From Alitabrizicola rongguiensis (lineage in GTDB: Bacteria > Pseudomonadota > Alphaproteobacteria > Rhodobacterales > Rhodobacteraceae), in the NCBI RefSeq assembly GCF_021491355.1, contig NZ_JAKENF010000003.1, positions 496,001 through 560,000 of the forward strand: DNA of 64,000 bases, in the 5' to 3' direction. This document shows positions 19,216 to 37,872 of this stretch, piece after piece; position 1 is the first letter of the stretch, and each line of letters begins with the position of its first letter. The notes under the pieces were generated by a model. It made no database searches. It was not told the DNA's origin and saw nothing but the letters and a program-made list of their open reading frames with translations. Both the position numbers and the translations under genes were made by a program.

Positions 19216-19246
19216 CTGACGGTCAGTCGGCTGGTCAGTCTGCGGA

Positions 19247-20095: not shown

Positions 20096-20103
20096 GTGTT
20101 ACC

Positions 20104-20838: not shown

Positions 20839-20848
20839 GGCGTTCTCC

Positions 20849-22387
20849 CTACATCACCGCGCCCATGGCCCAGGGCACGAATTCCGCGCCGCCGAAGCCG
20901 AGTTCTTCCGATTTCGTCTTTTCCCCGGAGGCGACCCGCAGGAAAAGCTCAAATATTTCTTGGCCTTTCTCTTCGATGCTCACTCCGTCCGTGATGATGT
21001 CGCCGCAGTTGATATCCATGTCCTCGGACATGCGGGCATACATCTCGGAATTGGTGGCAAGCTTGATGCAGGGGGTGGGCTTGTAGCCCGACACGGACCC
21101 GCGCCCGGTGGTGAAGGCGATCAGGTTGGCGCCAGAGGCGATCTGCCCGGTGACCGATGTCGGGTCGTAGCCGGGGCTGTCCATGAAGACAAAGCCGCGC
21201 TCTGTGATCGGTTCGGCAAACTTGTAGACCTGTGTCAGCGGCGCAGCCCCACCTTTGGCGACGGCGCCGAGCGACTTTTCTAGGATCGTCGTCAATCCGC
21301 CTTTCTTGTTTCCTGGCGAAGGGTTGTTGTCCATTTCTCCACCATTGCGTGAAGTATAGTCCTCCCACCACCGGATGCGCTCTACGATTTTCTGGCCTAC
21401 CTCTGGCGTGACGGCCCGACGCGTCAGAAGATGTTCCGCGCCATAGATCTCGGATGTTTCCGACAGGATCGTGGTCCCGCCATGGGCGACCAGAAGGTCC
21501 GAGGCATAGCCAAGCGCCGGATTGGCGGTAATCCCGGAATATCCATCCGAACCACCGCATTGCAGGCCGATCATCAAGTGTTCCAGCCCCGCCGGGCGGC
21601 GGACGGCCTTGTTCGCCTCTTCGGCCATCTCGCGCAAGATCGCGAGGCCGCGTTCGATGGTCTTTCGCGTCCCTCCCGTCTGCTGGATGGTCATGTAACG
21701 GAAGGTTCCGGTTTCCTTCATGCGGGCGCGGCCGACCAGATCGGGGATCTGCATGACCTCGCAACCGAGACCGACCAGGAGGATCGCGGCGAAGTTCGGG
21801 TTGCGGGCATAGCCGGCCAGCGTGCGGAAGAGCGTGTCATAGCCCTCGTCCTTTCCCGACATGCCGCAGCCTGTGCCATGGACGATCGGCACGACGCCAT
21901 CGACGTTCGGGTAGTCGGCAAGCCAGCCCTCGCGCTCGACCGCCTCGGCGATGAAGCGCGCGACCGAACCCGAGCAGTTCACCGAGGTGAGGATGCCGAT
22001 GTAGTTGCGGGTGCCCACGCTACCATCGGGGCGGTGGTAGCCCAGGAAGGTCCGTGTCCCGGTCGGGGCGGGCAGGGGGCGGACCTCGGTTGAAAAGGCG
22101 AAGTCCTGCTCATGCGCCCCCATGCCAAGGTTGTGGGTATGGACATGTTCGCCAGCCGCGATCGGCCGGGTCGCGACGCCGATGATCTGTCCATAGCGCA
22201 GGACATTCTCCCCTTCGGCAATCGCCCGGATGGCAATCTTGTGGCCGCGTGAGATCGGGCCTGCCAGCGGCGCAGCAACCTCGGCCACGGTGACTCCGGA
22301 CCCCAGATCGCGTAGGGCGATCACGACGTTGTCCTCGGGCGAAAGCCGGATTATGTCGGCCGTGGCTTGGGAGTGGGGATTGTTCAT
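20849..22387 (-). CDS. UxaA/altronate dehydratase family sugar acid dehydratase
   Basis: A 512-residue full-length UxaA-family protein: an N-terminal SAF domain (about 15-90, with PIAAGEHVHTHNL) and the long C-terminal domain with GYHRPDGSVGTRNYIGI, HGTGCGM, GLQCGGSDGYSGITANPALG and NNPSPGNKKGG. The conserved cysteines and histidines are consistent with an iron-dependent dehydratase. Characterised members act on altronate or galactarate; here the context suggests it dehydrates an L-fuconate-like sugar acid in place of the enolase-type fuconate dehydratase. First gene of the minus-strand operon, divergent from gntR with one regulator site between them. Confidence 0.85.
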   Translation of the reverse strand: MNNPHSQATADIIRLSPEDNVVIALRDLGSGVTVAEVAAPLAGPISRGHKIAIRAIAEGENVLRYGQIIGVATRPIAAGEHVHTHNLGMGAHEQDFAFSTEVRPLPAPTGTRTFLGYHRPDGSVGTRNYIGILTSVNCSGSVARFIAEAVEREGWLADYPNVDGVVPIVHGTGCGMSGKDEGYDTLFRTLAGYARNPNFAAILLVGLGCEVMQIPDLVGRARMKETGTFRYMTIQQTGGTRKTIERGLAILREMAEEANKAVRRPAGLEHLMIGLQCGGSDGYSGITANPALGYASDLLVAHGGTTILSETSEIYGAEHLLTRRAVTPEVGQKIVERIRWWEDYTSRNGGEMDNNPSPGNKKGGLTTILEKSLGAVAKGGAAPLTQVYKFAEPITERGFVFMDSPGYDPTSVTGQIASGANLIAFTTGRGSVSGYKPTPCIKLATNSEMYARMSEDMDINCGDIITDGVSIEEKGQEIFELFLRVASGEKTKSEELGFGGAEFVPWAMGAVM

Positions 22388-22459
22388 CTTGAAGCTGTCC
22401 AGGGACTGAGGGCCGTTCCTGACGTGGCGGCAGGACTTGACAGGAAGGGCTGAGGGGCT

Positions 22460-22474
22460 AACATGTTAGCATGC
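22460..22474. promoter_or_regulatory. GntR-type operator, site 1
   Basis: AACATGTTAGCATGC, built on the inverted repeat CATG-N4-CATG; the overlapping GCTAACATGTTAGC is itself a perfect palindrome. It lies between the dehydratase gene and gntR and overlaps the putative gntR start codon, which suggests autoregulation. Sites 2 and 3 share the same core. Confidence 0.7.
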
Positions 22475-23217
22475 TACCCGTGAATGATCCCGAGACGCAA
22501 GAGCCAATCCAGCCGGAATCCTTGCTGACTCCCCTGACGGCCTTCGAGGGCTCTCTGGGACAGAAGGTCTATTTGTCGCTCAAGCAGGCCATTATCGCGC
22601 TGGTATTCAAGCCTGGCGAGGCGCTGCGCAAGCAGGAGATCTGCGACCGTCTGGGGGTCTCGCGTTCCCCCGTCTCCGAGGCCGTGGCGCGGCTGGCAGG
22701 CGAGGGGCTTGTAGAGGTCGTCCCGCAGGCGGGAACCTTCGTCGCGCGCTTCTCCATGCAGGAGATCCGCGAGGGCGCGTTCCTGCGCGAGGCTCTCGAA
22801 CTTGCGGCTGTCGAGATGGTTGCCAAGACCATCACCGACGAGCAGATCGCGCTTCTGAAGCGGAACCTCCGGGTGCAGGAGGTGCTGGTCGCCGACGGGG
22901 ATCAGGCCGGATTTTACGAGATGGACAGCCAGATGCATGAGCTGATCCTGTCCTTCACCGGGTTTCGCCGTCTGGCTCCGATCGCCGAAACCCTGTGGGT
23001 GCAGGTGAACCGCGCAAGGCAACTGGTCCTGCCAAGGCCGGGCCGCCTTCAGGCGACGATCAAGGAGCACAAGGCGATCATCGCCGCGCTCGAGGCGCGC
23101 GAACCCTACGGTGCCCGCGCCGCAACGCGCACGCACCTGCGCCAGCTCGTGAGCCTGCTGGAAGAGACGGCCAAGCAGAAGCCCGAGCTTTTCGCCGAGC
23201 CCGTTCAGAGGCCATAG
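22471..23217 (+). CDS. GntR family transcriptional regulator (FadR/FCD subfamily)
   Basis: A 248-residue regulator. The winged helix at about 30-95 contains LGQKVYLSLKQAIIALVFKPGEALRKQ and LGVSRSPVSEAVARLAGEGLVEV; the C-terminal FCD ligand domain has LREALELAAVEMV, MDSQMHELI and KEHKAIIAALEAREP, with acidic and histidine residues that bind metal in this family. It probably senses a sugar acid from the surrounding pathway and binds the three RACATKYTAGYATG sites. The ATG at 22471 falls inside site 1; a GTG at 22480 is another possible start. Its end overlaps the convergent lactonase gene by 13 bp. Confidence 0.9.
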   Translation: MLPVNDPETQEPIQPESLLTPLTAFEGSLGQKVYLSLKQAIIALVFKPGEALRKQEICDRLGVSRSPVSEAVARLAGEGLVEVVPQAGTFVARFSMQEIREGAFLREALELAAVEMVAKTITDEQIALLKRNLRVQEVLVADGDQAGFYEMDSQMHELILSFTGFRRLAPIAETLWVQVNRARQLVLPRPGRLQATIKEHKAIIAALEAREPYGARAATRTHLRQLVSLLEETAKQKPELFAEPVQRP

Positions 23218-24038
23218 AACTCCGCCGCCGTGCCTCCGAAGATCCGGTCGCGCGCGGCTTGCGGCAAATGCGCGGTCAGATCGAGTGCGGCCTGACGCCA
23301 GCTGGCATAGCTGGCCGCCAGCAGACAGACCGGCCAGTCCGATCCCCACATCACCCGTTCCGGACCGAAGACCGCGAGGATGTGGTCGACGTAGGGTCTG
23401 AGGTCCTGCAATGTCCAGTCGGGCCGCGCCTCGGTGACGAGAGCCGAGAACTTGCAATAGGCCCCGGTCTCTCCGGCGAGGCGGGCCATCCCGTCGGCCC
23501 AGTGCGCGAAGGCTGCCAGGGAATGATCGCGGATTTGCGGCTTCATGCAGTGGTCGATCACCACCCGCAGGTCGGGGTAGCGCCGCAGCAGCGTCAGGAA
23601 ATGCCCGAGATGGCGGGGAAAGCCGAGCGCATCGAAGGTCAGGCCGTTCTCGATGAGGGCGCGATAGGCCCATTGCACGTCATCCCGGTGCATCCAGCCA
23701 TCGTCGGGCAGGTCCTGGATCATGGGACGGACGCCCTTGAACTTCGGATGCCCCGCAAGGCGTCGCAGGACGGCCGCAGCGGCGGGGCGCTCGAAATCCA
23801 CCCAGCCGACAACGCCCGCCACCATCTCGCCGGCATCGGCGAGGCCCAGCATGTATTCGCTTTCTTCTATGGACGGGGCAGCCTGGACCAGAACCGTCCG
23901 CTCGACACCCGCCTGTGACAGAAGCGGGGCGAGATCGGCCGGACCCCAGACCCTGTTCAGCGTCGCGTTGTCCTTCGGCATCCAGCCGTAATCGCCGCGG
24001 CCGGGGTTCCAGAAATGTTGATGGGCGTCGATCTGCAT
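23205..24038 (-). CDS. Amidohydrolase 2 family lactonase (L-fuconolactonase-like)
   Basis: A 277-residue TIM-barrel amidohydrolase of the COG3618 lactonase group. It begins MQIDAHQHFWNPGRGDYGWM, with the metal-site HxH motif at residues 6-8; later VVIDHCMKP and the catalytic aspartate region VMWGSDWPVCLL. Characterised relatives hydrolyse L-fucono-1,4-lactone or L-rhamnonolactone. It follows the aldo/keto reductase by 15 bp, which would produce its lactone substrate, so the pair forms steps one and two of an oxidative deoxysugar route. Confidence 0.88.
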   Translation of the reverse strand: MQIDAHQHFWNPGRGDYGWMPKDNATLNRVWGPADLAPLLSQAGVERTVLVQAAPSIEESEYMLGLADAGEMVAGVVGWVDFERPAAAAVLRRLAGHPKFKGVRPMIQDLPDDGWMHRDDVQWAYRALIENGLTFDALGFPRHLGHFLTLLRRYPDLRVVIDHCMKPQIRDHSLAAFAHWADGMARLAGETGAYCKFSALVTEARPDWTLQDLRPYVDHILAVFGPERVMWGSDWPVCLLAASYASWRQAALDLTAHLPQAARDRIFGGTAAEFYGL

Positions 24039-24053
24039 GTCCGCTTCCCGCGA

Positions 24054-25082
24054 TCAGACGGGCGCATCGGGATGGAGCAGTCCCGCCGCCCGGAAATCCG
24101 CCCAGAGCGCGTCAGGGATCTTGGCCCCGGCCGCGGCGGCATTGCTGTCAACCTCGGTGACGGCCTGCCCGCCGGGGATCACGGACACGACCGCTGGATG
24201 GCGCAGCGGAAACTGGAAGGCTGCGTCGACCATCCGCACGTTATGGCGGGCGCAGATCTCCTGGATCCGTGTTGCGCGCTCCAGCACCCAATCCGGGGCT
24301 GGGGCGTATTTGTAGAAGGCTCCGGGCCGCGGACCGGTGGCGAGGATGCCTGAATTGTAGGGTGCGCCGATCACCACGCCGATGCCGCGCGACTGGGCAA
24401 GGGGAAGGAAGCTGTCGAGCGCCGTCTGGTCGAGCAGCGTATAGGGACCGGCCAGCAGGAAGATGTCGAAATCGCCGCGCTCGGCCAGCATCTGGCACGG
24501 CTCCCATTCGTTGACCCCGGCGCCGAAGGCCTTGATGACCCCTTCGTCGCGCAGGCGAAGAAGCGCGCGGTAGCCGCCGGCCATGAACTCCTCGATCCGG
24601 GCATCCATCTTGTCCTTGCCGCCCTGCGAATAGATGTCGAGGTCATGGGCATAGAGGATATCGACCCGGTCGAGCCCCAGCCGCTCCAGGCTGATCTCGA
24701 AGCTCTTGAGCACGCCGTCATAGCTGTAGTCGAAGACCTCCTTGCGGGCGGGCGTGTCGAAGAACTTGCCGATCGCATCGGGCTGTTCGCCGGGGGCGCA
24801 GGTGCGCAGGAGGCGTCCGACCTTGGTCGAGATCACGTAGTCCTCGCGCGGCTTGCTGCGCAGGAAGCGGTTCAGGCGCGTCTCGGACAGGCCCATGCCG
24901 TAGAGCGGCGCGGTATCGAAGTAGCGGATGCCTGCCTGCCAGGCGCGCGCCAGGATCTCGTCCGCCGCTTCGTCCGAGATCGCCCGGTACAGGTTGCCGA
25001 TCGGCGCCGCGCCGAAGCCGAGCGTGGTGAAGGTGAGTCCTCCGTTGCCGATCCGGTCCCAGTGTCTTGTCGTCAGAGCCAT
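24054..25082 (-). CDS. Aldo/keto reductase, probable L-fucose/D-threo-aldose 1-dehydrogenase
   Basis: A 342-residue aldo/keto reductase. The catalytic tetrad is visible as Asp56 and Tyr61 (YFDTAPLYG), Lys87 (ISTKVGR) and the histidine in ILYAHDLD. The C-terminal part with PLRHPAVVSVIPGG matches the cofactor loop. The group includes bacterial L-fucose (D-threo-aldose) 1-dehydrogenases and pyridoxal dehydrogenases. ATG at 25082 has GGGAGGA upstream and is better than the in-frame TTG before it. Divergent from the BtpA/M42/kinase operon, with regulator site 2 between. Confidence 0.85.
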   Translation of the reverse strand: MALTTRHWDRIGNGGLTFTTLGFGAAPIGNLYRAISDEAADEILARAWQAGIRYFDTAPLYGMGLSETRLNRFLRSKPREDYVISTKVGRLLRTCAPGEQPDAIGKFFDTPARKEVFDYSYDGVLKSFEISLERLGLDRVDILYAHDLDIYSQGGKDKMDARIEEFMAGGYRALLRLRDEGVIKAFGAGVNEWEPCQMLAERGDFDIFLLAGPYTLLDQTALDSFLPLAQSRGIGVVIGAPYNSGILATGPRPGAFYKYAPAPDWVLERATRIQEICARHNVRMVDAAFQFPLRHPAVVSVIPGGQAVTEVDSNAAAAGAKIPDALWADFRAAGLLHPDAPV

Positions 25083-25102
25083 CAAATCCTCCCTCTTCCA
25101 CT

Positions 25103-25117
25103 GACATGCTAGTATGA
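25103..25117. promoter_or_regulatory. GntR-type operator, site 2
   Basis: GACATGCTAGTATGA matches sites 1 and 3 over the RACATKYTAGYATG core. It lies 21 bp before the aldo/keto reductase start and 72 bp before the BtpA-like gene, in the middle of this divergent promoter region. Confidence 0.65.
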
Positions 25118-25188
25118 TTTCTCTTGGTGTGCACCCGCTTCGCGTCTAGTGTCGGTGCACGGGGGCCTGTGGCTCCGGGGGAGGAAAA

Positions 25189-25992
25189 GTGAGCAATTTC
25201 AGACGTGTCTTCGGGCCCGGCAAGCCGGTGATCGCCATGGTGCATCTTGGCGCGCTGCCGGGGGCGCCGCTGTTCGATTCGGCGGCCGGGCTTGAAGGGC
25301 TGGTCGAGGGCGCGCGCGCAGACCTGCACGCGCTTCAGGCCGCGGGCTTCGATGCGGTGATGTTCGGTAACGAGAATGACCGGCCCTACGAGTTCAAGGT
25401 CGATACCGCCTCGACCGCGACCATGGCCTATGTGATCGGAAGGCTCCGGCCCGAGATCGCCGTGCCCTTTGGCGTGAACGTGCTGTGGGACCCGATGAGT
25501 TCGGTGGCTTTGGCCGCCGCGACGGGGGCGAGTTTCGTGCGCGAGATCTTTACCGGCACCTATGCAAGCGACATGGGGCCATGGACCCCCGATGCGGGCG
25601 CGGCACTCCGCTACCGCACACGGGTCGGGCGGGGCGATCTGGCGATGCTTTACAATGTCTCGGCCGAATTCGCCGACAGCCTCGACCAGCGGCCCTTGCC
25701 TGACCGGGCACGCAGCGCGGTCTTCTCCTCGATCCCCGATGCGGTGCTCGTCTCTGGCCAGATCACTGGCGAAGCTGCGGAATTGTCGGATCTGGAGGGA
25801 GTGAAACGCGTTCTGCCCGACACGCCGGTGCTGGCCAATACCGGGGTAAAGCATGCCACGGTGGCCGACGTGCTGCGAGTGGCCGATGGCTGCATCGTCG
25901 GTTCGGCGCTCAAAGTCGACGGCCATACCTGGAACGCGGTCGATCCCGAGCGGGCGAAGGACTTCATGGCGCGGGTGAGGGCGGTCAGGTGA
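25189..25992 (+). CDS. BtpA/SgcQ family TIM-barrel protein
   Basis: A 267-residue BtpA-family protein, with VIAMVHLGALPGAPLF at the start, FDAVMFGNENDRPYEF, PFGVNVLWDPMSSVALAAATGASFVREI and NTGVKHATVADVLRVADGCIVGSALKVDG. The (beta/alpha)8 pattern and phosphate-type C-terminal loop suggest an enzyme on a phosphorylated sugar. BtpA itself was linked to photosystem I stability, but SgcQ-type members sit in sugar operons, as here. GTG start at 25189 with GGGGAGGAAAA upstream. First gene of a four-gene operon and overlaps the M42 gene by 4 bp. Confidence 0.85.
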   Translation: MSNFRRVFGPGKPVIAMVHLGALPGAPLFDSAAGLEGLVEGARADLHALQAAGFDAVMFGNENDRPYEFKVDTASTATMAYVIGRLRPEIAVPFGVNVLWDPMSSVALAAATGASFVREIFTGTYASDMGPWTPDAGAALRYRTRVGRGDLAMLYNVSAEFADSLDQRPLPDRARSAVFSSIPDAVLVSGQITGEAAELSDLEGVKRVLPDTPVLANTGVKHATVADVLRVADGCIVGSALKVDGHTWNAVDPERAKDFMARVRAVR

Positions 25993-27083
25993 AAGAACGG
26001 CTGCGACGGGACCTGACGGAGCTGATGCTCATCCCCGGCCTCTCTGGGCACGAGGAGCGCGTCGCGGCCCGCATTCGCGAAGGGCTGGCCGAGGCAGGGA
26101 TCGGTTCGCGTGTGGACCGGCTGGGCAACGTGATCGCGACACTGCCGGGCGATCCCGCGGCGCCCTCGGTGATGATCTTTACCCATATGGATCAATTGGG
26201 TTTTTTCGTCCGCAAGGTCGAATCGGATGGACTTATCCGCGTCGAGCGGATGGGCGGCGTTTCCGAACGCGCGATGGCGGCGCAGCCGGTCCTTCTCTGT
26301 GTCGGGCCTGGGCGCGACGTGCCGGGCATCATCATGAACAAGGCCCACCACGCGACGACGCCCGAGGAGAAATACAAGGTTCTGACCGCCCCCGAGATCC
26401 GCATCGACACCGGCCATGGCAGCAAGGCGGCGGTGGAAGCGGCAGGCATCACCATCGGAACCCCGGTCGTCTATCGCCCTCAGGTCCTGCCTCTGGCGGG
26501 CGACCGCATTGCCGGGACTTCGGTCGATGACCGGGCAGGCTGCGCGGTGTTGCTCGAAGTGGCGCGCGTGCTGGCAGGGCGCAAGGGCGGACCGACAGTG
26601 CATCTGGTTTTTTCGGTGCAGGAAGAATTCAACCTGCGCGGCGCTGTGGTGGCGGCGCAGGTGTTGAAGCCCGACATCGCCCTGCAGATCGACCTGATGC
26701 TCGCGACCGACACGCCCGACATGGCCGACCGGGGCGAGATGGTAATGGGCGGCGGGCCTGGGATCAGCCTTTACTCCTTCCACGGACGCGGCACGCTTAA
26801 CGGGGTCGTTCCGCATCCGGGACTGGTGCGACTGTTCGAGGCTGCGGCTGCGGGCGAGGGTCTGCCGCTTCAGCGCTCGGCGCAGGTGGGGGTCCTGACG
26901 GATCTGTCCTATGTCCAGCTCGTTGGCGAGGGTGTCGCAAGCCTCGATCTGGGCTTCCCGATGCGGCATTCCCATTCGGCGGTGGAATGCTGCGACCTTG
27001 GCGATCTTGTCGGACTGACGCAACTGATCCTGGCCGGCGTTGCGCGCATTGACCCGGATTTTCGTCTGGAGAGAGATGGTTAG
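25989..27083 (+). CDS. M42 family metallopeptidase-like protein (FrvX/SgcX type)
   Basis: A 364-residue M42 protein with all five di-metal ligands visible: His66 (FTHMDQLGF), Asp180 (TSVDDRAGC), Glu212/Glu213 (VQEEFNLRGA), Asp241 (LATDTPDM) and His329 (MRHSHSAVE). It should therefore be catalytically competent. M42 enzymes are tetrahedral aminopeptidases, yet FrvX and SgcX are encoded in sugar operons, as here next to BtpA/SgcQ. The real substrate in such operons is unknown; deacylation or deamination of a sugar derivative is possible. GTG start overlapping the previous stop. Confidence 0.88.
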   Translation: MKERLRRDLTELMLIPGLSGHEERVAARIREGLAEAGIGSRVDRLGNVIATLPGDPAAPSVMIFTHMDQLGFFVRKVESDGLIRVERMGGVSERAMAAQPVLLCVGPGRDVPGIIMNKAHHATTPEEKYKVLTAPEIRIDTGHGSKAAVEAAGITIGTPVVYRPQVLPLAGDRIAGTSVDDRAGCAVLLEVARVLAGRKGGPTVHLVFSVQEEFNLRGAVVAAQVLKPDIALQIDLMLATDTPDMADRGEMVMGGGPGISLYSFHGRGTLNGVVPHPGLVRLFEAAAAGEGLPLQRSAQVGVLTDLSYVQLVGEGVASLDLGFPMRHSHSAVECCDLGDLVGLTQLILAGVARIDPDFRLERDG

Positions 27084-27086
27084 GCG

Positions 27087-28595
27087 ATGACATTCACGCT
27101 CGGTGTCGACATTGGAACCTTCGAATCGAAGGGTGTGATCGTCGATGACGCCGGTCGAATCATCGCCGCCGCCAGCCGGCCGCACGAGATGCTCGTTCCT
27201 CGTCCAGGCTGGGCCGAGCATCGGGCGGAGGAAGATTGGTGGGGAGATTTCGTTCATATTGTTAGGGAGTTGCTGAATAATTCTCAGGTTAAGCCCGAAG
27301 AGATCGCAGCAATCGCAACTTCGGCGATCGGTCCCTGCATGCTGCCCGTCGATCACCAGGGCAGACCCCTGACGAACGGAGTCCTTTACGGCGTCGATAC
27401 CCGCGCAAGCGTCGAAATCGCGGACATCACCGAACGCCTTGGCGCTGATGCGATCCTGGCGCGCGGCGGCAATGCGCTGACCTCGCAATCGGTGGGGCCA
27501 AAGATCCTGTGGTTGCGAAAGAACAGACCGGATGTCTGGAAAAAGACATCAAAAATAATGACTTCAACTACATATCTAACCTATCGTCTGACCGGCGAGA
27601 TGGTGATCGATCACTATACGGCCGCGAATTACTCGCCACTCTATGACATCGCGCAGCAGGACTGGCGCGATGATCTCGGCTGGATCTGTCCGCGCCGGAT
27701 GCTGCCACGCCTTCTTTGGTCGACGGAGATTGCGGGCCTGGTCACGGCAGAGGCCGCTGCGGAAACCGGACTGGCCGAGGGTATCCCCGTAACCTGCGGC
27801 ACGATCGATGCGGCGGCCGAGGCGGTGAGCGTCGGGGTCCGCCAACCGGGCGATCTGATGCTGATGTATGGATCGACGGTCTTCGTCATCCTGATTGCCG
27901 ATCATCGCTTGACCGATCCTCGCCTTTGGCATGCGCCGTGGCTGTTTCCGGGTCAGTTCTCGGCCATGGCGGGGCTCGCGACCAGCGGTACGCTGACGCA
28001 TTGGTTCCGGGACGAGTTGGCGCGCGACCTTGATCAGCAGACCGCCTTCGCTGTGCTCGCAGGTGAGGCCGCCACGTCGCCTCCGGGTGCAAAGGGATTG
28101 ATCGTGCTTCCACATTTCTCGGGAGAGCGGACGCCGATCCACGATCCCCTGGCCAAGGGCGCAATCTTCGGACTGAATCTGACCCATGGTCGCGGCGACC
28201 TCTATCGCGCGACGCTCGAAGGCATCGCCTGTGCGACACGGGCCATCACCGATACCTATGCCGAGGCCGGTCAGCCCGTCTTGCGGGTGCGGGCGGTCGG
28301 GGGCGGAACGAAGAACGCCATCTGGCTCAAGGCGACCTCAGACCTGACAGGCCTCGACCAGACCCTGTGCGAGGTGACGAGCGGCGCGGCCTATGGCGAT
28401 GCGTTCCTTGCGCGGCTGGCGATCGGCGGGGCGCCTGCTGCGGATATTGACGTCTGGAATCCCGCGGCGCGGATCGTCGATGCGGCGCACGAACCGGCCT
28501 ATGATCGCCTTTATCCGCTTTACCGGCGCCTCTATGCCCAGACGAAAGACATTGCCGCTGCGCTGGAGGACGAGGGCCGATGCGCTTCGAGCTGA
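27087..28595 (+). CDS. FGGY family carbohydrate kinase
   Basis: A 502-residue FGGY kinase: LGVDIGTFESKGVIVDDAG for the first phosphate loop, LYGVDTRASVEIADI, GTIDAAAEAVSVGV, GSTVFVILIA, GERTPIHDPLAKGAIFGL and VRAVGGGTKNAIWLKATSDLTG. The family includes xylulose, fuculose, rhamnulose and erythritol-type kinases; the specific sugar is not clear. GTR of typical members is replaced by GTFES at the N-terminus. Two AT-rich patches with rare codons (27250-27300 and 27538-27590) stand out. Third gene of the operon; its end overlaps the creatininase-like gene by 16 bp. Confidence 0.88.
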   Translation: MTFTLGVDIGTFESKGVIVDDAGRIIAAASRPHEMLVPRPGWAEHRAEEDWWGDFVHIVRELLNNSQVKPEEIAAIATSAIGPCMLPVDHQGRPLTNGVLYGVDTRASVEIADITERLGADAILARGGNALTSQSVGPKILWLRKNRPDVWKKTSKIMTSTTYLTYRLTGEMVIDHYTAANYSPLYDIAQQDWRDDLGWICPRRMLPRLLWSTEIAGLVTAEAAAETGLAEGIPVTCGTIDAAAEAVSVGVRQPGDLMLMYGSTVFVILIADHRLTDPRLWHAPWLFPGQFSAMAGLATSGTLTHWFRDELARDLDQQTAFAVLAGEAATSPPGAKGLIVLPHFSGERTPIHDPLAKGAIFGLNLTHGRGDLYRATLEGIACATRAITDTYAEAGQPVLRVRAVGGGTKNAIWLKATSDLTGLDQTLCEVTSGAAYGDAFLARLAIGGAPAADIDVWNPAARIVDAAHEPAYDRLYPLYRRLYAQTKDIAAALEDEGRCASS

Positions 28596-29323
28596 TGCGG
28601 CCACACCAGATCCGCGAGGCGATTGCAGGCAACTGGCCGGTCGTCCTGCCGCTTGGGGTGATGGAGTATCACGGTGAGCATCTGCCGGTCGGAATGGACA
28701 TGCTGGCAGTGAGCCGCGCGCTGGAACGGCTTGAAACGGAAGCGGATCTCGTGATCCTGCCGTCCTTCGCCTACGGCGCTGCAAGCCATGCTGTGGCTGG
28801 GCCGGACGGCACGGGAACGCTGCATCTCGATGCCGAGGCGTTGGTGCCAATGGCGCGGGCGCTGTTCTCTGCTTTGCTTGCCACGGGTTTTCGCAACATC
28901 CATGCGGTGATCCACCACCAGTCCGAGGATTTCGGGCAGGGCATGCCGACGGATCTCGCTTTTCGCCTTGCCGCACGGCAGGCGATCTTTTCCCGCGTCG
29001 AGGCAGAGCGGGGGCCCGGTTGGTGGGGCAAGGACGAGATGCGCGACTACTACGCGAGCGGTGCGCCCGATCCCTTCCAGTGGATCCGGGTGCATCCGCT
29101 CCTGCCACTCGACAGCCGCGACCGGTTTCCCTTCGACCATGCGGGCGAAGGCGAAACCTCGCTGATGCTGGCGCTGGCGCCCGAAACCGTCGCACCCTGG
29201 CGGATGGCGGAGAACACCAGCTGGTACACCGAGACGGCCCCGGAAGGGTCGGCGGAACGGGGGGAAGATGGGGTGACGGTCATCCTGCAACATCTGCGAA
29301 GATGCTTCAGGATCGACGCATAA
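28580..29323 (+). CDS. Creatininase family amidohydrolase-like protein
   Basis: A 247-residue creatininase-fold protein. The metal motif MEYHGEHLPVGMD gives Glu29, His31 and Asp40, with the same E-x-H and nine-residue spacing as creatininase; HHQSED near 115 and EGETSLML near 190 provide further ligands. The family also contains enzymes acting on cyclic sugar or inositol derivatives, which fits a sugar operon better than creatinine. Fourth gene of the operon, overlapping the kinase gene, and convergent with fucU 7 bp away. Confidence 0.82.
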   Translation: MRFELMRPHQIREAIAGNWPVVLPLGVMEYHGEHLPVGMDMLAVSRALERLETEADLVILPSFAYGAASHAVAGPDGTGTLHLDAEALVPMARALFSALLATGFRNIHAVIHHQSEDFGQGMPTDLAFRLAARQAIFSRVEAERGPGWWGKDEMRDYYASGAPDPFQWIRVHPLLPLDSRDRFPFDHAGEGETSLMLALAPETVAPWRMAENTSWYTETAPEGSAERGEDGVTVILQHLRRCFRIDA

Positions 29324-29330
29324 CCCTTTG

Positions 29331-29771
29331 TCAGACCACGCCCTTGCGCAGGATGAAACAGCCGTAGGGGCCGGGGTCGGAGGTGCGGATGATGCAGAAG
29401 GCCCGCTTGGCGGCCGCATAGAAGTCGAACCGCTCGAGCGCCGCCATAGCCACCGGCTTGCCCTCGGCCTTGTCGAGGACAGACTGCATCCTGCCAAAGA
29501 CCGGCATCTGGGCATCCGGGTTACCGACCACCTGCATCCGCCAGACCGGCTCGGGGACGAAGCTGTCCAGCGGGAACAGCGTCAGGATCGCCTCGGCCGC
29601 CTGCGGGATGTCGCAGCCCGCCATGTCGAGGAGGCGGCCGTAGGTGGTTTCGCTCGCGATAGTGACCGCCGGGTGATTGATGTCGCAGATCACCAGATCA
29701 TCGCCATGCCCCATCTGCATCAGCGCATGCAGCAGGTCGGCGGTCAGGCGGCGATCGATGGTCTTCAGCAC
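29331..29771 (-). CDS. fucU: RbsD/FucU family sugar mutarotase (copy 1)
   Basis: A 146-residue FucU/RbsD-fold protein: LLHALMQMGHGDDLVICDINHP with the catalytic His, PLDSFV, and C-terminal FYAAAKRAFCIIRTSDPGPYGCFILRKGV. The tyrosine-glycine-cysteine end (YGCFILRKG) is the L-fucose mutarotase form. It interconverts sugar anomers for the dehydrogenase or kinase. GTG start at 29771 with GGAG upstream. Last gene after the two ABC permeases, in the transporter operon. A second copy is at 35542. Confidence 0.88.
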   Translation of the reverse strand: MLKTIDRRLTADLLHALMQMGHGDDLVICDINHPAVTIASETTYGRLLDMAGCDIPQAAEAILTLFPLDSFVPEPVWRMQVVGNPDAQMPVFGRMQSVLDKAEGKPVAMAALERFDFYAAAKRAFCIIRTSDPGPYGCFILRKGVV

Positions 29772-29787
29772 GGAATGTCTCCGATTT

Positions 29788-29824
29788 TTCCTCGAAAAAT
29801 CATGCAGATCCCTGAATTTCGTAG
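29788..29824. repeat. GATTTTTC/GAAAAATC palindrome plus GAATTTCGTAGAAA, copy 2
   Basis: GATTTTTC-CTC-GAAAAATC is a perfect hairpin, followed by GAATTTCGTAGAAA, which also occurs after icd. It lies between the second permease gene and fucU, inside the transporter operon. Confidence 0.55.
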
Positions 29825-29837
29825 AAACCGCGACCAG

Positions 29838-30755
29838 TCATTTCACCGCGCCTGCCGCCATGCCCTTGATGATGTAACGCTCGAGCAGCACGCCGATGAT
29901 GATGAGCGGGATGATCGCGGCAAAGCTCAGCGCTGCCATCGACCACCAGCTGATCCCCTGGCTGCCGGTCTGGCTTGCCACCATCACCGGCAAGGTATTG
30001 GCATGGGTCGAGGTCAGGAGCGCGGCGAAGAAATACTCGTTCCAGGTCAGCACCAGGCTCAGGATGAAGGCGGCGACCATACCGGGTAGGGCGATCGGCA
30101 GCACGATGGTCAGGAAGGCGCCCCAGATCGACAGGCCATCGACAAGCGCGGCCTCTTCCAGCTCATGCGGAATGCCGGCGAACTGGTCGCGCATGATCCA
30201 GATGACGATCGGCAGGACCGACAGTGTGTAGAGAAGGATCAGCCCGATCCGCGTGTCGAGCAGTGCCAGCTCCTTGTAGAGCACAAGGAAGGGCAGGGCG
30301 AGCACAACCGGCGGCAGGATCAGCTGGCTGAGGAAGAAGAAGCTGATGTCGGGGTTCCGCATCCACAGGAACTTGTACGAGAATCGCGACAGACCGTAGG
30401 CGGCCAGGCTGCCCAGGATCACCGCCGCGGCCGAGGAGGTCAGCGAAATGACCGTCGAGTTCATGAAGCGCACCATGAACTCCTGCCGGACGGTCGACTC
30501 GCTGCCGATGGTGTCAGGCGATAGGCCAAGCGACTTCCAGCCCAGCCATTTCGGGGTGAAGTCGACCCAGGGGATCAGTGTGCCCTTCATCACGTCCGGT
30601 GCCGCCTTGAAGCTCGTGGTGATGGTCCAGTAGATCGGGAACAGGCAGATCGCCGCCCAGAGGAGGAGCATGCCGTAGATCGCCACACGCGAGGCATACC
30701 AGCCCAGTCGGGCAGGGCGGTCATTGGGGTGGTCGTGAAAGATCTGGTCGGTCAT
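29838..30755 (-). CDS. Carbohydrate ABC transporter permease (MalG type)
   Basis: A 305-residue inner-membrane permease with six predicted helices and the EAA loop EEAALVDGLSIWGAFLTIVLPIALPG, which contacts the ATPase. The N-terminus is MTDQIFHDHPNDRP and the C-terminus ERYIIKGMAAGAVK is the usual MalG/UgpE end. It starts 1 bp after the stop of the other permease. It belongs with the binding protein (31929), the second permease and the ATPase at 33829. Confidence 0.92.
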   Translation of the reverse strand: MTDQIFHDHPNDRPARLGWYASRVAIYGMLLLWAAICLFPIYWTITTSFKAAPDVMKGTLIPWVDFTPKWLGWKSLGLSPDTIGSESTVRQEFMVRFMNSTVISLTSSAAAVILGSLAAYGLSRFSYKFLWMRNPDISFFFLSQLILPPVVLALPFLVLYKELALLDTRIGLILLYTLSVLPIVIWIMRDQFAGIPHELEEAALVDGLSIWGAFLTIVLPIALPGMVAAFILSLVLTWNEYFFAALLTSTHANTLPVMVASQTGSQGISWWSMAALSFAAIIPLIIIGVLLERYIIKGMAAGAVK

Positions 30756-30756
30756 G

Positions 30757-31863
30757 TCAGTACTTCGGCCTCATCCAGCGGTCGGCGAGCTTCATCAGGA
30801 TGGTCATGAAGATGATGATGAGCACGAGGTAGACCATAGCCAGAAGCGTGCCATAGCCTACGTTCGAGCGGTCGCGGTATTCGCGATAGATGAAGCTCGT
30901 CACGCTGTCCGTTGCTCCGCCGGGGCCGCCCGAGGTCAGGTTGATGATGATGTCGGCCAGCTTCAGCTTGAAGATGATGCGGATCAGGATCGCGGTGATC
31001 GACACCGGCAGCATCAACGGGAAGGTCACCTCCCAGAATCCACGCCAGGCGCTGGCGCCGTCCACACGCGCCGCTTCCTGCACGTCCTTCGGGATCGCCT
31101 GCAGACCCGCGAGGATCATGATCATCATGAAGGGGATATAGGTCCAGGCATCCAGCACCATGATCGTGGCGCGGGCGAGTTCGGGCGAAGAGAAGAATGA
31201 GGGGTCTTCCCAGCCGAGGAAGCGGGCGAGATTGGCGATGGGTCCGAAGCGCACCTCGAGCATGGATTTGCCGACCATCCAACTGACCGCGACCGGCGAC
31301 AGCATTAGTGGCAGCAGGAAAGCCACGCGGAAGAACTTGCGCGCCCGGATCTGGGCGTTCAGCAGGAGCGCAAGCCCGAAGGCGATCGCATATTCGACAA
31401 TGATGGCCAAAAGATACCAGACCATGTTGCCAAGCGCGTTCCAGTAGAACGGGTCGCTCCACATCTGGCGCACGTTGTCGAGGCCGTTGAACTGCCGCCC
31501 GTCCGGTGAGGATAGGTTCCAGTTCGAAAAGGCAATCATCATCCCGAAGATGAGCGGAAACACCACAAGGGAAATGACGAACAACGCCGCCGGGAGGACG
31601 AAGAGCACGCGCTTGCCCTGTTCGCCCCGGATGAGCACCTGCGACCAGCAGAGGCAGATCGAGAAGAGGACATAGGCGTAAAGCGTCGGCCGCCAGTTCG
31701 ACAAGCCGATCGGCAAGGCTCCCGTCCGGTCGAGGGTCTGGACAAGCGCCGTCGCGGCTAGCAGGGCGAGCGACGCCCAGACGATCGCTTTTCCAAACGC
31801 CTGGCGGCCAGGGGAAATGTCGTCATTGGTGACGACATGCAGCAGGTCGCCGGTATCAGACAA
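30757..31863 (-). CDS. Sugar ABC transporter permease (MalF type)
   Basis: A 368-residue permease with eight predicted helices, an extended N-terminus with two extra helices, and the EAA loop QEAARVDGASAWRGFWEVTFPLMLPVS. The start chosen is the TTG at 31863, because GGAGGT lies 8 bp upstream of it; a longer reading would put the start on top of that ribosome site. It is 65 bp after the binding-protein gene. Partner of the MalG-type permease. Confidence 0.9.
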   Translation of the reverse strand: MSDTGDLLHVVTNDDISPGRQAFGKAIVWASLALLAATALVQTLDRTGALPIGLSNWRPTLYAYVLFSICLCWSQVLIRGEQGKRVLFVLPAALFVISLVVFPLIFGMMIAFSNWNLSSPDGRQFNGLDNVRQMWSDPFYWNALGNMVWYLLAIIVEYAIAFGLALLLNAQIRARKFFRVAFLLPLMLSPVAVSWMVGKSMLEVRFGPIANLARFLGWEDPSFFSSPELARATIMVLDAWTYIPFMMIMILAGLQAIPKDVQEAARVDGASAWRGFWEVTFPLMLPVSITAILIRIIFKLKLADIIINLTSGGPGGATDSVTSFIYREYRDRSNVGYGTLLAMVYLVLIIIFMTILMKLADRWMRPKY

Positions 31864-31928
31864 GGCAGGGACCTCCAAAAGACAGAAATGGGCCGGCGAT
31901 CGGGTCGCCGGCCCAGACGTGGATCAGT

Positions 31929-33584
31929 TCACATGCCGAGCGAGGCCTTGTAGAGCTTGATCTGGTTCTCGCGGCCGATCTGGTCGGTGATCTTCTCCCA
32001 GGCGGCGGCTATGGCATCGGCGGTTTCCTGGGCCGACTTGTATTGACCGGCATATCCCTTGGCCAGTTCGTCCTCGGCGACCGAGTAGTACTGGAAGATG
32101 CCGGGGATGCGCGGCTCGATCGCGGCGTTCGGGTGGTTGTAGCTGTCGAGGTTCGAGCCGAGATAGTCCTCGATATAGGCCCGGTCGTAGCCTGCCGCTT
32201 CCCATTCGTCGTAGTTGAACTGCGAGTTGCGGTAGGGCTGGAAGCCCGAGGGATAGGCCGCCATCCAGAGCGAGATGTCCTTGCCGCCGAGATGCGCCGC
32301 GGCAGACCATGCCGCCTTGCGCTTCTTCTCGTCGCCCGAGACGTTCTTGGTCACGTAGATGCCCCAGCCAAGATAGGCCATGTTGGGCGCGAAGTTCGGG
32401 CTTTCCGGGGTTTCCCAGGCCTGGGTCTGCCAGTTGTAGACCTTTTCCGAGCCGGGGTTGATCGAGAAGCCGGTCACTTCGCCGACAACCGAGGTGTCCG
32501 AGGTCTTGGCCATCGAGCCCACGTCGCCCCACCAGCAGAGCGCCGATCCGGTTCCGGCGAGGAATTGCTGGAACGCAGTGGTGCCGGGGTCGGCGTTGAT
32601 CTGGTCAGACGGACCAAAGGGTATCGCGTCCATCACGTCCTGGATCGCCTGCACCCAACCCGCGTTGTTGACGAGCGGCTTCATCGTTTCCGGCTCGAAC
32701 AGGAAGGCCGGGCTCGAGGGGTGCTTCACATAGGCGGTGGCGCGATCTTCCAGGAAGTAGAAGCCGAAGCCGCCCCAGCCCTTGAGCGGGTCGAGATAGC
32801 CATAGGCGTCGAGTCCGGTCAGCGGGTCCTTTTGGCCCTTCACTTTCTTGGTGAAGTCGTTGACCTGCTGCCAGGTTGTCGGCGGCGCAGTCAGGCCGGT
32901 GGCTGCGGTGATGGCCGCATCGGTGAAGTAGTCGTTGCGATAGCTGAACGTATGGCAGTCGCCGTCGATAGTGATGCGGTAGACCTTGCCGTCCCAGGTC
33001 CCGACCGGCGGCTTGAGGTAGTTCACGTAGTCGTCCATGTCGATCTGAGCCTTGACCCAGTCCGGCATCTCGTCGAGCAGGCCTTGGCCAGCCGTATCGC
33101 CTTCGAAGGGGGCGCCCATCTCGACGATGTCGAAGTCCACCGTTCCGGTGGCGATCGACTGCTGGAGACGCGGGTTGTAGTCGGCCTGGGCGAGGTCGAT
33201 CCAGTTGATCTTGGCGCCGGTATAGGCCTCCCAAGGCTTCAGGAAGCCACGGAACAGGAAGTTGTGCAGGTTCTGGTTGTTGAGCCCCATGAAGGTCAGC
33301 TCGACCCCGGCGAATTCACCTTCGGCGACATTGGCCTTGGTCGGGCCAAGGCACATCTCGCCGACCTTCTGCCAGTCGGCATCGGTGGGCGATCCGGCGC
33401 CGACGCCCGGTATCTTCAGGATTTCGGCCCGCAGGTTGTCCTGGGCCAGGGCAGGGCGCGCCCCGGCGCCAAGGCCAAGCCCTCCAAGCGCAGCAAGGCC
33501 GCCAATACCGGCCGCCCCCTTCAGAAGCCCCCGGCGGGTCATCGCGGACCTCGCCACGAGGGCGTTGTAAATCTCGACTTTCAT
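31929..33584 (-). CDS. ABC transporter sugar-binding protein with Tat signal
   Basis: A 551-residue periplasmic binding protein, about 100 residues longer than typical sugar-binding proteins. A twin-arginine signal (MTRRGLLKGAAGIGGLAALG) ends near ARPALA at about residue 47. The mature part has the type I sugar-binding pattern (ELTFMGLNNQNLHNFLFRGFLKPWEAYTG split over lobe 1, then aromatic residues W and Y along the cleft). Tat export suggests folding in the cytoplasm. ATG at 33584 with GGGAGGT 8 bp upstream. First gene of the transporter operon, divergent from the ATPase gene, with regulator site 3 between. Confidence 0.9.
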   Translation of the reverse strand: MKVEIYNALVARSAMTRRGLLKGAAGIGGLAALGGLGLGAGARPALAQDNLRAEILKIPGVGAGSPTDADWQKVGEMCLGPTKANVAEGEFAGVELTFMGLNNQNLHNFLFRGFLKPWEAYTGAKINWIDLAQADYNPRLQQSIATGTVDFDIVEMGAPFEGDTAGQGLLDEMPDWVKAQIDMDDYVNYLKPPVGTWDGKVYRITIDGDCHTFSYRNDYFTDAAITAATGLTAPPTTWQQVNDFTKKVKGQKDPLTGLDAYGYLDPLKGWGGFGFYFLEDRATAYVKHPSSPAFLFEPETMKPLVNNAGWVQAIQDVMDAIPFGPSDQINADPGTTAFQQFLAGTGSALCWWGDVGSMAKTSDTSVVGEVTGFSINPGSEKVYNWQTQAWETPESPNFAPNMAYLGWGIYVTKNVSGDEKKRKAAWSAAAHLGGKDISLWMAAYPSGFQPYRNSQFNYDEWEAAGYDRAYIEDYLGSNLDSYNHPNAAIEPRIPGIFQYYSVAEDELAKGYAGQYKSAQETADAIAAAWEKITDQIGRENQIKLYKASLGM

Positions 33585-33749
33585 TGGTTGTGACCTCCCT
33601 ATTGTCACGCGCAGGAATTTTGCCGGACAGGCACGCAGGCCCCTGGAACCGGGGGTAATTTTCCTCTGCGTTCTTGACCCTTTGCCGAGTCCGGCCTCCT
33701 CCGGACACGGCGAAACCTTCTCAGGCGGGCAAGCTCAAGTCAAGCATCT

Positions 33750-33764
33750 AACATTTTAGCATGT
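33750..33764. promoter_or_regulatory. GntR-type operator, site 3
   Basis: AACATTTTAGCATGT shares the RACATKYTAGYATG core with the sites at 22460 and 25103. It lies between the sugar-binding-protein gene (start 33584) and the ATPase gene (start 33829). Confidence 0.65.
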
Positions 33765-33828
33765 CAATTAGGTGGACAGGCCGGATGCCCTGCGCTAGGC
33801 AAGTCGTGGGAACAACAAAGGGGGGACC

Positions 33829-34887
33829 ATGGCCGGAGTCACGATCCGCGACCTGCGCAAGGCCTATGGCGGGCTGGAAGTGCTGCATGGCGTCAATATC
33901 GACATCGCCGACGGGCAATTCGTCGTGCTGGTCGGTCCTTCGGGTTGTGGCAAGTCCACGCTGCTGCGGATGCTGGCCGGTCTGGAAAGCATCACCGCGG
34001 GCACGATCCAGATCGGAGACCGGGTGGTGAACAACCTTGCGCCATCCGAGCGCGACATCGCCATGGTGTTCCAGAACTATGCGCTTTACCCCCACAAGAC
34101 AGTTGCCGCGAACATGGGCTTTCCCCTGAAGATGCGCGGCATGGCGAAAAACGAGATCAATTCTCGGGTCGAGAGGGCTGCCGACATCCTTGGCCTAAAG
34201 CCCTATCTCGACCGCTATCCCCGCGCCCTGTCGGGCGGCCAGCGGCAGCGCGTGGCGATGGGGCGGGCGATCGTGCGCGATCCGCAGGTCTTTCTGTTCG
34301 ACGAGCCGCTGTCTAACCTGGACGCCAAACTGCGGGTCCAGATGCGCACGGAAATCCGCGAGCTTCATCAGCGGCTTAAGACAACGACGGTCTATGTCAC
34401 CCACGATCAGATCGAGGCGATGACCATGGCCGATCGCATCGTCGTGATGCGCGACGGCCATATCGCCCAACAGGGTGCACCGCTGGAGCTGTACGACCGA
34501 CCGGCCAATACCTTCGTCGCAGCCTTCATCGGCTCGCCCTCCATGAACCTTCTGCCGGGGGTGGTCGGGGCCGGCGGCGGCTCTGTCGAGGTCGATGGCA
34601 CCGCGATTGCCGTGCCGCCGCGCCAGGGTATGGACCCGGGCCGCAAGGTGATCGTCGGCATCCGCCCCGAGCATCTGTCGATCGCCTCGTCGGGCATCAC
34701 GGCGACGGTCGTGGTAATCGAGCCTACGGGATCCGAAACCCATGTCGTCCTCCGCCTGGGCTCGCGCGAGCTGACAGCAGTCTTCCGCGAGCGTCATGCC
34801 TTCCGCCCGGGCGATACGGTCACGCTTGCGCCCGATCCCACCGTAATCCACCTCTTCGACGAGGCGACCGGAGACAGGATTGGATGA
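33829..34887 (+). CDS. Sugar ABC transporter ATPase (UgpC/MsmK/MalK type)
   Basis: A 352-residue importer ATPase: Walker A GPSGCGKST at about 37-45, signature LSGGQRQRVAMGRAI, Walker B FLFDEPLSNLDAKLR, the switch THDQIEAM, and a C-terminal OB/TOBE domain from about 240 with VGIRPEHLSI. It powers uptake through the two permeases coded on the other strand. ATG at 33829 with GGGGGGACC upstream. First gene of a plus-strand operon; it overlaps the next gene by 4 bp. Confidence 0.94.
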   Translation: MAGVTIRDLRKAYGGLEVLHGVNIDIADGQFVVLVGPSGCGKSTLLRMLAGLESITAGTIQIGDRVVNNLAPSERDIAMVFQNYALYPHKTVAANMGFPLKMRGMAKNEINSRVERAADILGLKPYLDRYPRALSGGQRQRVAMGRAIVRDPQVFLFDEPLSNLDAKLRVQMRTEIRELHQRLKTTTVYVTHDQIEAMTMADRIVVMRDGHIAQQGAPLELYDRPANTFVAAFIGSPSMNLLPGVVGAGGGSVEVDGTAIAVPPRQGMDPGRKVIVGIRPEHLSIASSGITATVVVIEPTGSETHVVLRLGSRELTAVFRERHAFRPGDTVTLAPDPTVIHLFDEATGDRIG

Positions 34888-35525
34888 CCCGCACGCTGCT
34901 TTGCTATGGCGACAGCAACACCCACGGCACCATGCCAATGGCCGAGATCGAGGATATGGGCCGCTTCGGCCCCGGCATCCGCTGGCCCCACCTGCTGGCA
35001 GGGAAGCTGAACGGCTGGACCGTCATCGAAGAAGGTCTGCCAGGGCGAACGACCGTTCATGATGACCCGATCGAGGGGCCGCATCGCAACGGCCTTTCGG
35101 TGCTGCCAGCGATCCTGGAAAGTCACCGCCCGATCGATGTCGTCCTGATCATGCTCGGCACCAACGACTTGAAAGGCCGCTTCTCCGTAAATGCGTCCGA
35201 CGTGGCGCATTCGCTGGAGCGGTTGGTGCGCGCTGTCGAAGTTTCGCGATGCGGTCCGGGGGCAGGGGCGCCGCAGGTTCTGCTGGTCGCGCCGCCGCCG
35301 ATTCTCGAGGCCGGTTGCCTCGCCGGGATGTTCGAGGGGGGCGCGGAGAAATCGCGAGGCTTTGCGGCCCGAATCGCCGAGACCGCGCGGCGCATGGGTG
35401 TGCCGTTCCTTGACACTGCCGACGTGGTCGCCGTGTCCGAGATCGACGGGATTCATTACGATGAGCCTGCGCAAGAGGCGCTGGCGACAGCTTTCGCCGG
35501 GGCTATCGTACGGCATTTCGGCTGA
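34884..35525 (+). CDS. SGNH/GDSL hydrolase
   Basis: A 213-residue SGNH-fold esterase: block I CYGDSNTHG with Ser11, block II glycine in EEGLPGRTT, block III MLGTNDLK, and block V DGIHYDEPAQ supplying Asp and His. It resembles arylesterases of sugar operons that remove acyl groups from carbohydrates. No signal peptide, so it acts in the cytosol, possibly deacylating an imported sugar. It overlaps the ABC ATPase by 4 bp and precedes fucU copy 2 by 16 bp. Confidence 0.85.
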   Translation: MTRTLLCYGDSNTHGTMPMAEIEDMGRFGPGIRWPHLLAGKLNGWTVIEEGLPGRTTVHDDPIEGPHRNGLSVLPAILESHRPIDVVLIMLGTNDLKGRFSVNASDVAHSLERLVRAVEVSRCGPGAGAPQVLLVAPPPILEAGCLAGMFEGGAEKSRGFAARIAETARRMGVPFLDTADVVAVSEIDGIHYDEPAQEALATAFAGAIVRHFG

Positions 35526-35541
35526 CGACAGGGAGAGGACC

Positions 35542-35994: not shown

Positions 35995-35997
35995 GCC

Positions 35998-36918: not shown

Positions 36919-36972
36919 ATTCACTGGCGTGCAGGGTTGGAAGGGCATGCTTTCAAGACATAAGAAAGACCT

Positions 36973-36986
36973 ATAATCGGTATTAT
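36973..36986. promoter_or_regulatory. ATAAT-CGGT-ATTAT inverted repeat before rpe
   Basis: Perfect 5-bp arms in an AT-rich stretch (36955-36998) of the 157-bp gap between the PfkB kinase and rpe. It could be an operator or part of a promoter. Only one copy is seen. Confidence 0.3.
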
Positions 36987-37075
36987 GTAAATAACTGATG
37001 CGTATGGCACTGGCCATGGATCGCAACGCGCATTAAGCAGAAGCATCCCATTCCTAAGCGCCCTGCAGGTTTCCG

Positions 37076-37762: not shown

Positions 37763-37872
37763 CGCGGTCGTGCCCTGCCCCTCGATCCGGTTCTGCCTGA
37801 ACACATTCCAATTGCAACATATCGACTTTGGAGTCAGAAGTTCTCTAGACTGATGACAAAGGAGTGACCGCC

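Follow-up and report, generated by a model that had tools for sequence, protein, structure and literature searches.

Genes and Operators of the Locus

The analysed DNA is a 64-kb stretch of the Alitabrizicola rongguiensis genome (hereafter the window; C7:496001-560000 of 4.195 Mb), which carries a cluster of sugar catabolic and transport genes together with gntR, the gene of a regulator with a GntR-type helix-turn-helix (HTH) and an FCD domain. Six transcripts are predicted in this cluster: UxaA-SDR-FAH facing away from gntR, AKR (aldo-keto reductase)-lactonase facing away from BtpA-M42-FGGY-creatininase, and SBP (solute-binding protein)-permeases-FucU facing away from ATPase-SGNH-FucU-PfkB (Table 1). 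Three copies of one operator lie in the intergenic regions of these pairs and very probably, on the sequence comparisons given below, tie about 18 sugar genes to one repressor-like switch.

The three sites were first noticed in an initial annotation, which placed similar sequences at 22460, 25103, and 33750; these positions are right and are the only exact matches of the core RACATKYTAGYATG on both strands of the window. Each of them is located between divergent genes and one overlaps the gntR start, as claimed, operator 1 containing the start codon ATG at 22471. The shared core was also read correctly, while the operator proved longer than the 15 bp proposed, namely 18 bp, and the CATG-N4-CATG symmetry ascribed to it is perfect in operator 1 but not in operator 2, where the right half reads TATG, nor in operator 3, where the left half reads CATT; the self-complementary positions number 14, 10, and 12 of 18, respectively. 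The suggestion that at least 15 genes belong to one regulator agrees with the figure of about 18, for which we infer the operon limits from strand and spacing. When up to two mismatches to the core were allowed, the window gave eight rows against 1.25 expected, three of them exact, and the first-order Markov expectation of 0.001 exact matches per window is a post hoc figure, since the core was read off these three sites.

Table 1. Genes, operators, and promoter elements of the cluster in window coordinates.
Feature	Position	Strand	Basis or remark
FAH-family hydrolase, near 2,4-didehydro-3-deoxy-L-rhamnonate hydrolase	19247..20095	-	NF053535 433.9 bits, cutoff 500
SDR dehydrogenase, probable 2-keto-3-deoxy-fuconate dehydrogenase	20104..20838	-	generic SDR families only, and operon place
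UxaA/altronate-galactarate dehydratase family	20849..22387	-	PF20629, PF04295
gntR promoter TTGACA-N16-TAACAT	22437..22464	+	10/12 match; -10 box coincides with the opening third of operator 1
Operator 1 TAACATGTTAGCATGCTA	22459..22476		UxaA/gntR intergenic; 34.6 bits, matrix from other genomes
gntR, GntR HTH and FCD regulator	22471..23217	+	PF00392 64.5 bits, PF07729 99.5 bits; start codon in operator 1
Amidohydrolase, probable L-fucono-1,5-lactonase type	23205..24038	-	NF052480 204.4 bits, cutoff 400, the only NCBIfam match; PDB 4dlf, 4dnm
AKR, probable L-fucose/L-galactose dehydrogenase	24054..25085	-	L-galactose dehydrogenases as the five top solved structures
Operator 2 TGACATGCTAGTATGATT	25102..25119		AKR/BtpA intergenic; 21.8 bits, matrix from other genomes
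BtpA/SgcQ family protein, predicted TIM barrel	25189..25992	+	TIGR00259 248.3 bits, cutoff 153.4; model and fold searches
M42-family metallohydrolase, SgcX-like	25989..27083	+	PF05343
FGGY carbohydrate kinase	27087..28595	+	PF00370, PF02782; XylB model below cutoff
Creatininase-family amidohydrolase	28580..29323	+	PF02633
RbsD/FucU mutarotase 1	29331..29771	-	PF05025
ABC permease 2	29838..30755	-	profile match
ABC permease 1	30757..31878	-	profile match
ABC SBP, 559 aa	31929..33608	-	PF01547
-35-like TTGACT, facing SBP operon	33738..33743	-	flanks operator 3
Operator 3 TAACATTTTAGCATGTCA	33749..33766		SBP/ABC ATPase intergenic; 31.5 bits, matrix from other genomes
-35-like TGGACA, facing ATPase operon	33773..33778	+	flanks operator 3
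ABC ATPase, UgpC/MalK type	33829..34887	+	NF008653 505.4 bits, cutoff 432
SGNH-type hydrolase, read by eye	34884..35525	+	weak match only, NF007819 20.8 bits, cutoff 270
RbsD/FucU mutarotase 2, start approximate	35560..35994	+	NF011949 75.7 bits, cutoff 141
PfkB kinase, ribokinase-like	35998..36918	+	TIGR02152 299.4 bits, cutoff 299.65
Ribulose-phosphate 3-epimerase (RPE)	37076..37762	+	TIGR01163 262.5 bits, cutoff 212.6

Operator Model and Its Matches in the Genome

Because the core itself was derived from the three sites, an 18-column weight matrix was built as an independent test from 46 sites lying upstream of gntR in other genomes (with 41 stretches and 20 18-mers that are distinct, a few genomes occurring twice), from which the window and its near-copy L050 were left out, and 11 bits was taken as the site threshold. 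The matrix gives the 18-bp palindrome TARCATGYTARYATGYTA, symmetric about a central TA, with the operator core GY-TA-RC at 2-nt spacing and G[C/T] in the right half of 43 of the 46 training sites. Applied to the window it ranks operators 1, 3, and 2 (matches starting at 22459, 33749, and 25102) above all other places; the fourth match (12.2 bits) overlaps operator 1 and the fifth reaches 5.7 bits, and 640 kb of first-order random sequence contained no match of at least 11 bits. An alternative symmetry centre on CATG, CTAACATGTTAG, was dropped, since the conserved block of 18 bp is symmetric about TA. The flanking intergenic positions, unlike the operator, have mostly diverged across loci. The C directly to the left of the operator (window 22458) is near-invariant before gntR (51/53), BtpA (26/27), and the ATPase gene (13/14), and no mirrored G is seen on the right.

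A scan of the genome, one of the checks proposed in the initial annotation, found the motif to be rare: six places differ from the 18-mer by at most three mismatches, the three operators and three others, all of the latter inside open reading frames (ORFs). A looser search with a 14-mer returned 18 rows, with three places exact and the others carrying one mismatch; the 11 places outside the window scored from -3.7 to 25.0 bits, and the three of them that exceeded 11 bits all lay in ORFs. Three places of this search outside ORFs of at least 150 aa (L004, L007, and L014) were considered, yet they reach only 2.9, -0.3, and 6.8 bits.

Conservation across Related Genomes

The second check, conservation in orthologous clusters, was made on 80 loci kept from 471 BtpA relatives, of which the nearest among the matches listed belong to Rhodobacter and other Rhodobacterales. 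The operator is kept in these loci and its occurrence follows that of gntR, the presence of which was judged within the stretch examined, some loci ending at contig ends. Before BtpA a site above 11 bits is found in 24 of 32 loci with gntR and in 5 of 48 without it (Fisher p 6e-9), and before the ABC ATPase gene (at least 60% identity) in 14 of 16 against 1 of 15 (Fisher p 7e-6), although these p-values overstate the independence of the counts because the loci are related and a few genomes occur twice, which has to be counted against the interpretation given below. Neither the BtpA nor the ATPase sites were used for matrix training; gntR has its own site in all 32 gntR-bearing BtpA loci, most of these sites being in the training set. 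Shuffled regions exceeded the threshold in 4 of 555 cases. The equivalent of operator 2 is present in the AKR/BtpA intergenic region of 26 of the 80 loci and that of operator 3 in the SBP/ATPase intergenic region of 15.

At the level of whole genomes, gntR was found at 1e-40 or better in 32 of 149 genomes of the family. The exact 15-mer TARCATKYTAGYATG occurs in 22 of the 31 other gntR-positive genomes and in none of 31 gntR-negative ones (p 1e-9), while the same word read backwards, used as a control, occurs in none of these 62 genomes. From the 39 places of the 15-mer, 30 were fetched as loci, and all but one (L132) lie next to FucD, the L-fuconate dehydratase gene, or to a homologue of one of the cluster genes. 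The comparison of sequences thus supports both the conservation of the sites and their tie to gntR, and the reading of the three sites as one GntR regulon, proposed in the initial annotation, is supported in silico by the matrix, by conservation, and by co-occurrence with gntR; neither of the two checks contradicts it.

The Regulator and Promoters at the Operators

The regulator scores well above the Pfam cutoffs in both its N-terminal winged helix-turn-helix (cutoff 27 bits) and its C-terminal FCD ligand domain (cutoff 24.3 bits). In the latter all 62 aligned rows (the window counted twice) share the residues D152, H156, H200, and H222, which we take to form the metal site known from FCD domains that sense carboxylates; such a pocket would suit L-fuconate or 2-keto-3-deoxy-L-fuconate as inducer.

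The gntR promoter is the best promoter-like match in the 19 kb from 19000 to 38000, and a -35 box of at least 5/6 accompanies 37 of 58 operator-bearing gntR loci, the window included. Judged from its -10 box, transcription would start on the ATG at 22471, positions 13-15 of the operator. Of 51 gntR copies of at least 57% identity (window included), 48 have this ATG open and in the reading frame of the gene, as does one of seven more distant copies with the operator. As judged from this comparison, the operator covers the -10 box, the expected start point, and the start codon at once, so that a bound protein would block its own leaderless mRNA; the gntR mRNA is, we infer, probably leaderless and subject to tight self-repression.

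At operator 3 a -35-like box stands on each side at a near-fixed distance in 16 of 17 loci (window included), against 4-6% per side in shuffles, so that one dimer could govern both ABC promoters. Operator 2 is followed by a TATGAT-like -10 box in many BtpA loci, and no conserved -35 box was seen across these loci.

Sugar Oxidation Genes and Predicted Pathway

Where pathway-specific models match, namely those of the lactonase, the hydrolase, and the mutarotases, they indicate L-fucose oxidation of the non-phosphorylating type, all with scores below the curated cutoffs. The strongest clue to function is an exchange of dehydratases: in one relative (L068, 2457-3806) the gene right after the operator encodes an enolase-type L-fuconate dehydratase (1yey, E 3.5e-165), with the ATG of the ORF inside the operator, and no UxaA was found in that locus. 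FucD also follows the operator in L079, L120, L125, L136, L141, and L149; the operator ATG fits the FucD start or frame in L068, L079, and L125 and does not in L120. Since some relatives lacking UxaA have FucD behind this operator instead, the UxaA-family protein of the window likely acts on L-fuconate-type acids.

Of the 32 loci with gntR, 25 contain the genes for dehydratase, SDR, and FAH, as do 2 of the 48 without it. Thus, gntR travels with the oxidation branch, whereas BtpA occurs without gntR in 48 loci, some of them cut by contig ends, and the BtpA module appears, from this distribution, to have become joined to gntR and the oxidation branch. The gntR-bearing locus L068 also carries a LacI protein. 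In relatives (L126, 6188-8046) the genes right after gntR encode a TIM barrel resembling xylose isomerase and another PfkB kinase, unlike the window, where the lactonase gene directly follows. A DUF2264 protein is encoded at 17071-19215 on the plus strand, convergent with the FAH gene, and no operator match above 0 bits lies upstream of it among the top 15 matrix matches of the window.

Proposed Mechanism and Its Alternatives

According to these data it is considered highly probable that the GntR/FCD protein is a local self-regulating repressor of about 18 genes, acting through three 18-bp operators on an L-fucose-type pathway. A GntR dimer would bind TARCATGYTARYATGYTA at the three divergent promoter regions; at gntR it would shut off the regulator's own leaderless mRNA from the -10 box, predicted start point, and start codon, and at the ABC genes one dimer would sit between the two outward-facing -35-like boxes. 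The repressor would most likely be released by a carboxylate intermediate, L-fuconate or 2-keto-3-deoxy-L-fuconate, or by the D-arabinose or L-galactose counterparts of these. The controlled genes most likely comprise a non-phosphorylating L-fucose-type pathway, an ABC transporter, and the BtpA/M42/FGGY module. An operator that stands both at the regulator gene and at linked catabolic and transport genes and is kept in related clusters, as here, is the mark of a local autoregulated catabolic regulon, and in this respect the system is a well-supported GntR/FCD local regulon, that is, an ordinary kind of gene control.

Several observations weigh against this interpretation. Within the genome a near-perfect palindrome inside a 1,260-aa ORF (C7:281262; L015, 9263-9280) reaches 25.0 bits, more than operator 2, and is probably a chance match; other coding matches lie in an ORF with RecG domains (C7:600375, 18.7 bits) and close to the 5' end of a 368-aa ORF (C7:839441, 16.3 bits). 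As such matches score above or near operator 2, this site is credible by its position and its conservation in 26 loci and not by its score. No site above threshold is found before BtpA in 8 of 32 gntR-bearing loci, four of which (L052, L053, L054, and L061) have a weakened site at about the same place, nor before the ATPase gene in 2 of 16. The exact 15-mer is absent from 9 of 31 gntR-positive genomes, in 7 of which gntR identity is at most 56%. The promoter scan as a whole gave no excess, with 4 matches against 3.1 expected from shuffles, and 21 of the 58 operator-bearing gntR loci have no good TTGACA.

The coding matches of similar score would also suit the view that the sites play no part in regulation and arose by chance or as structural repeats; that view is hardly credible, being already contradicted by the conservation of the sites at comparable positions across tens of loci, where most flanking positions diverge, and by their dependence on gntR. 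It is very improbable that the sites belong to another transcription factor that serves this cluster and has gntR merely as one target, although five BtpA regions and one ATPase region carry a site in loci counted as lacking gntR. The 15-mer distribution among gntR-positive and gntR-negative genomes speaks against it, and most of the BtpA exceptions have a possible explanation: in L066, L110, and L111 the contig ends within about 820 bp of BtpA, so that a gntR gene may have been cut off, and in L069 the place expected for gntR is taken by a match that, at 34% identity, falls below the cut; only L076, with a site before BtpA, remains without such an explanation. Among nine proteins tested from four gntR-less BtpA loci (L086, L094, L107, and L117) no regulator was found.

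The same regulon could be imagined with GntR as activator of the ABC promoters, and perhaps of the BtpA promoter, its repression being confined to its own gene and the dehydratase operon. Upstream of both -35-like boxes and off any -10 box, operator 3 occupies a place that an activator could use, but a single site halfway between them would serve just as well to block both promoters sterically, and the overlap with the gntR -10 box favours repression there; activation is therefore regarded as unlikely. The substrate leaves more room, and it is possible, if doubtful, that the regulon as described serves another sugar of the same C2-C4 arrangement (D-arabinose, L-galactose, or D-altronate) and that L-fucose is incidental. 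This would agree with the L-galactose dehydrogenases found as best structures for the AKR, with the lactonase, hydrolase, and mutarotase scores below cutoff, and with one UxaA-superfamily enzyme that prefers D-arabinonate, its activities on D-altronate, L-fuconate, and L-galactonate being 12%, 5.6%, and 2.4% (PMC6336799). The presence of FucD under the same operator in relatives, together with the FucU-type mutarotases and the lactonase match, points instead to L-fucose.

Beyond the repressor reading, it is tentatively proposed that one operator joins two sets of genes found apart elsewhere, the L-fucose-type oxidation branch and the BtpA/M42/FGGY/FucU/PfkB/ABC module; that BtpA/SgcQ proteins, including E. 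coli SgcQ, would act, if a common substrate underlies this joining, on a compound yielding an L-fuco-, L-galacto-, or D-arabino-configured sugar; and that the -10 box, the start point, and the start codon of leaderless gntR mRNAs, and in some relatives of fucD mRNAs, are all supplied by the operator. If so, an 18-bp word would be read by repressor, RNA polymerase, and ribosome and would determine how the regulator protein begins, usually with Met-Leu.

Relation to Known Systems

The regulators of the FadR subfamily share with this protein the GntR HTH and FCD domains, a palindrome in divergent promoters, and a site at their own gene (PMC4494728). Their published consensus reads TKGT/ACMA, GT and AC being 2-3 nt apart, whereas here GY-TA-RC is flanked by CAT/ATG; BioR and NanR are named in that paper as exceptions to the TKGT-N2/3-ACMA operator. 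In 43 of the 46 training sites the right half has GC or GT instead of the AC of the subfamily, and the operator may be taken as a variant of the FadR-subfamily palindrome.

For microbial-mat bacteria, one of the four genomes being Rhodobacteraceae bin08, a FucR regulon has been predicted in L-fucose loci, where genes of L-fucose oxidation likewise stand with those of an ABC transporter and of a regulator for which sites are predicted (PMC5507952). The text consulted gives neither the regulator family nor the motif nor which genomes have sites; FucR may be the same regulator as this GntR protein, in which case priority would lie there. The mutarotase, dehydrogenase, lactonase, dehydratase, SDR, and hydrolase families of the non-phosphorylating L-fucose route 3 (FucM, A, B, C, F, and G; PMC11199699) are all represented in the window; in contrast to that route the dehydratase is of the UxaA family, an ABC transporter and the BtpA module are added, and the pathway is predicted here from the genes. 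A literature search over titles and abstract openings turned up no paper that describes this operator or assigns a BtpA gene to a GntR regulon.

By these comparisons a motif read by hand has become a well-supported regulon of about 18 genes and has yielded a comparison-tested model of the operator of a GntR/FCD regulator found in Rhodobacteraceae and related bacteria.

BtpA Module and ABC Transporter

Placing the BtpA/SgcQ and M42 proteins under the same switch as L-fucose-type oxidation provides a lead on their substrate and a short list of candidate inducers. The BtpA structure model (mean pLDDT 86.4) resembles many TIM barrels, mostly phosphosugar-type enzymes, with no single reaction picked out; the search of BtpA against solved structures gave no match. 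An M42 gene, a family to which SgcX presumably belongs, is present in 78 of the 80 BtpA loci. The membership of the RPE gene in the preceding operon is uncertain, because it begins 157 bp after the PfkB kinase gene. Members of the BtpA/SgcQ, M42 (SgcX), and RPE (SgcE) families also stand together in the E. coli sgcABCEQX operon, which has a phosphotransferase (PTS)-type transporter, whereas the window has an ABC transporter and sugar kinases (PMC13343008). The cluster is not classed as an sgc operon because its linked transporter is of the ABC and not the PTS type; by analogy it may work on a compound similar to that of the sgc operon, the substrate of which is stated as unknown in the same source.

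The SBP of the transporter gave two weak sugar-binding matches among solved structures (E about 0.001). Between the SBP gene and the first permease gene a terminator-like hairpin lies on the minus strand (31889-31915), which perhaps lowers permease expression.

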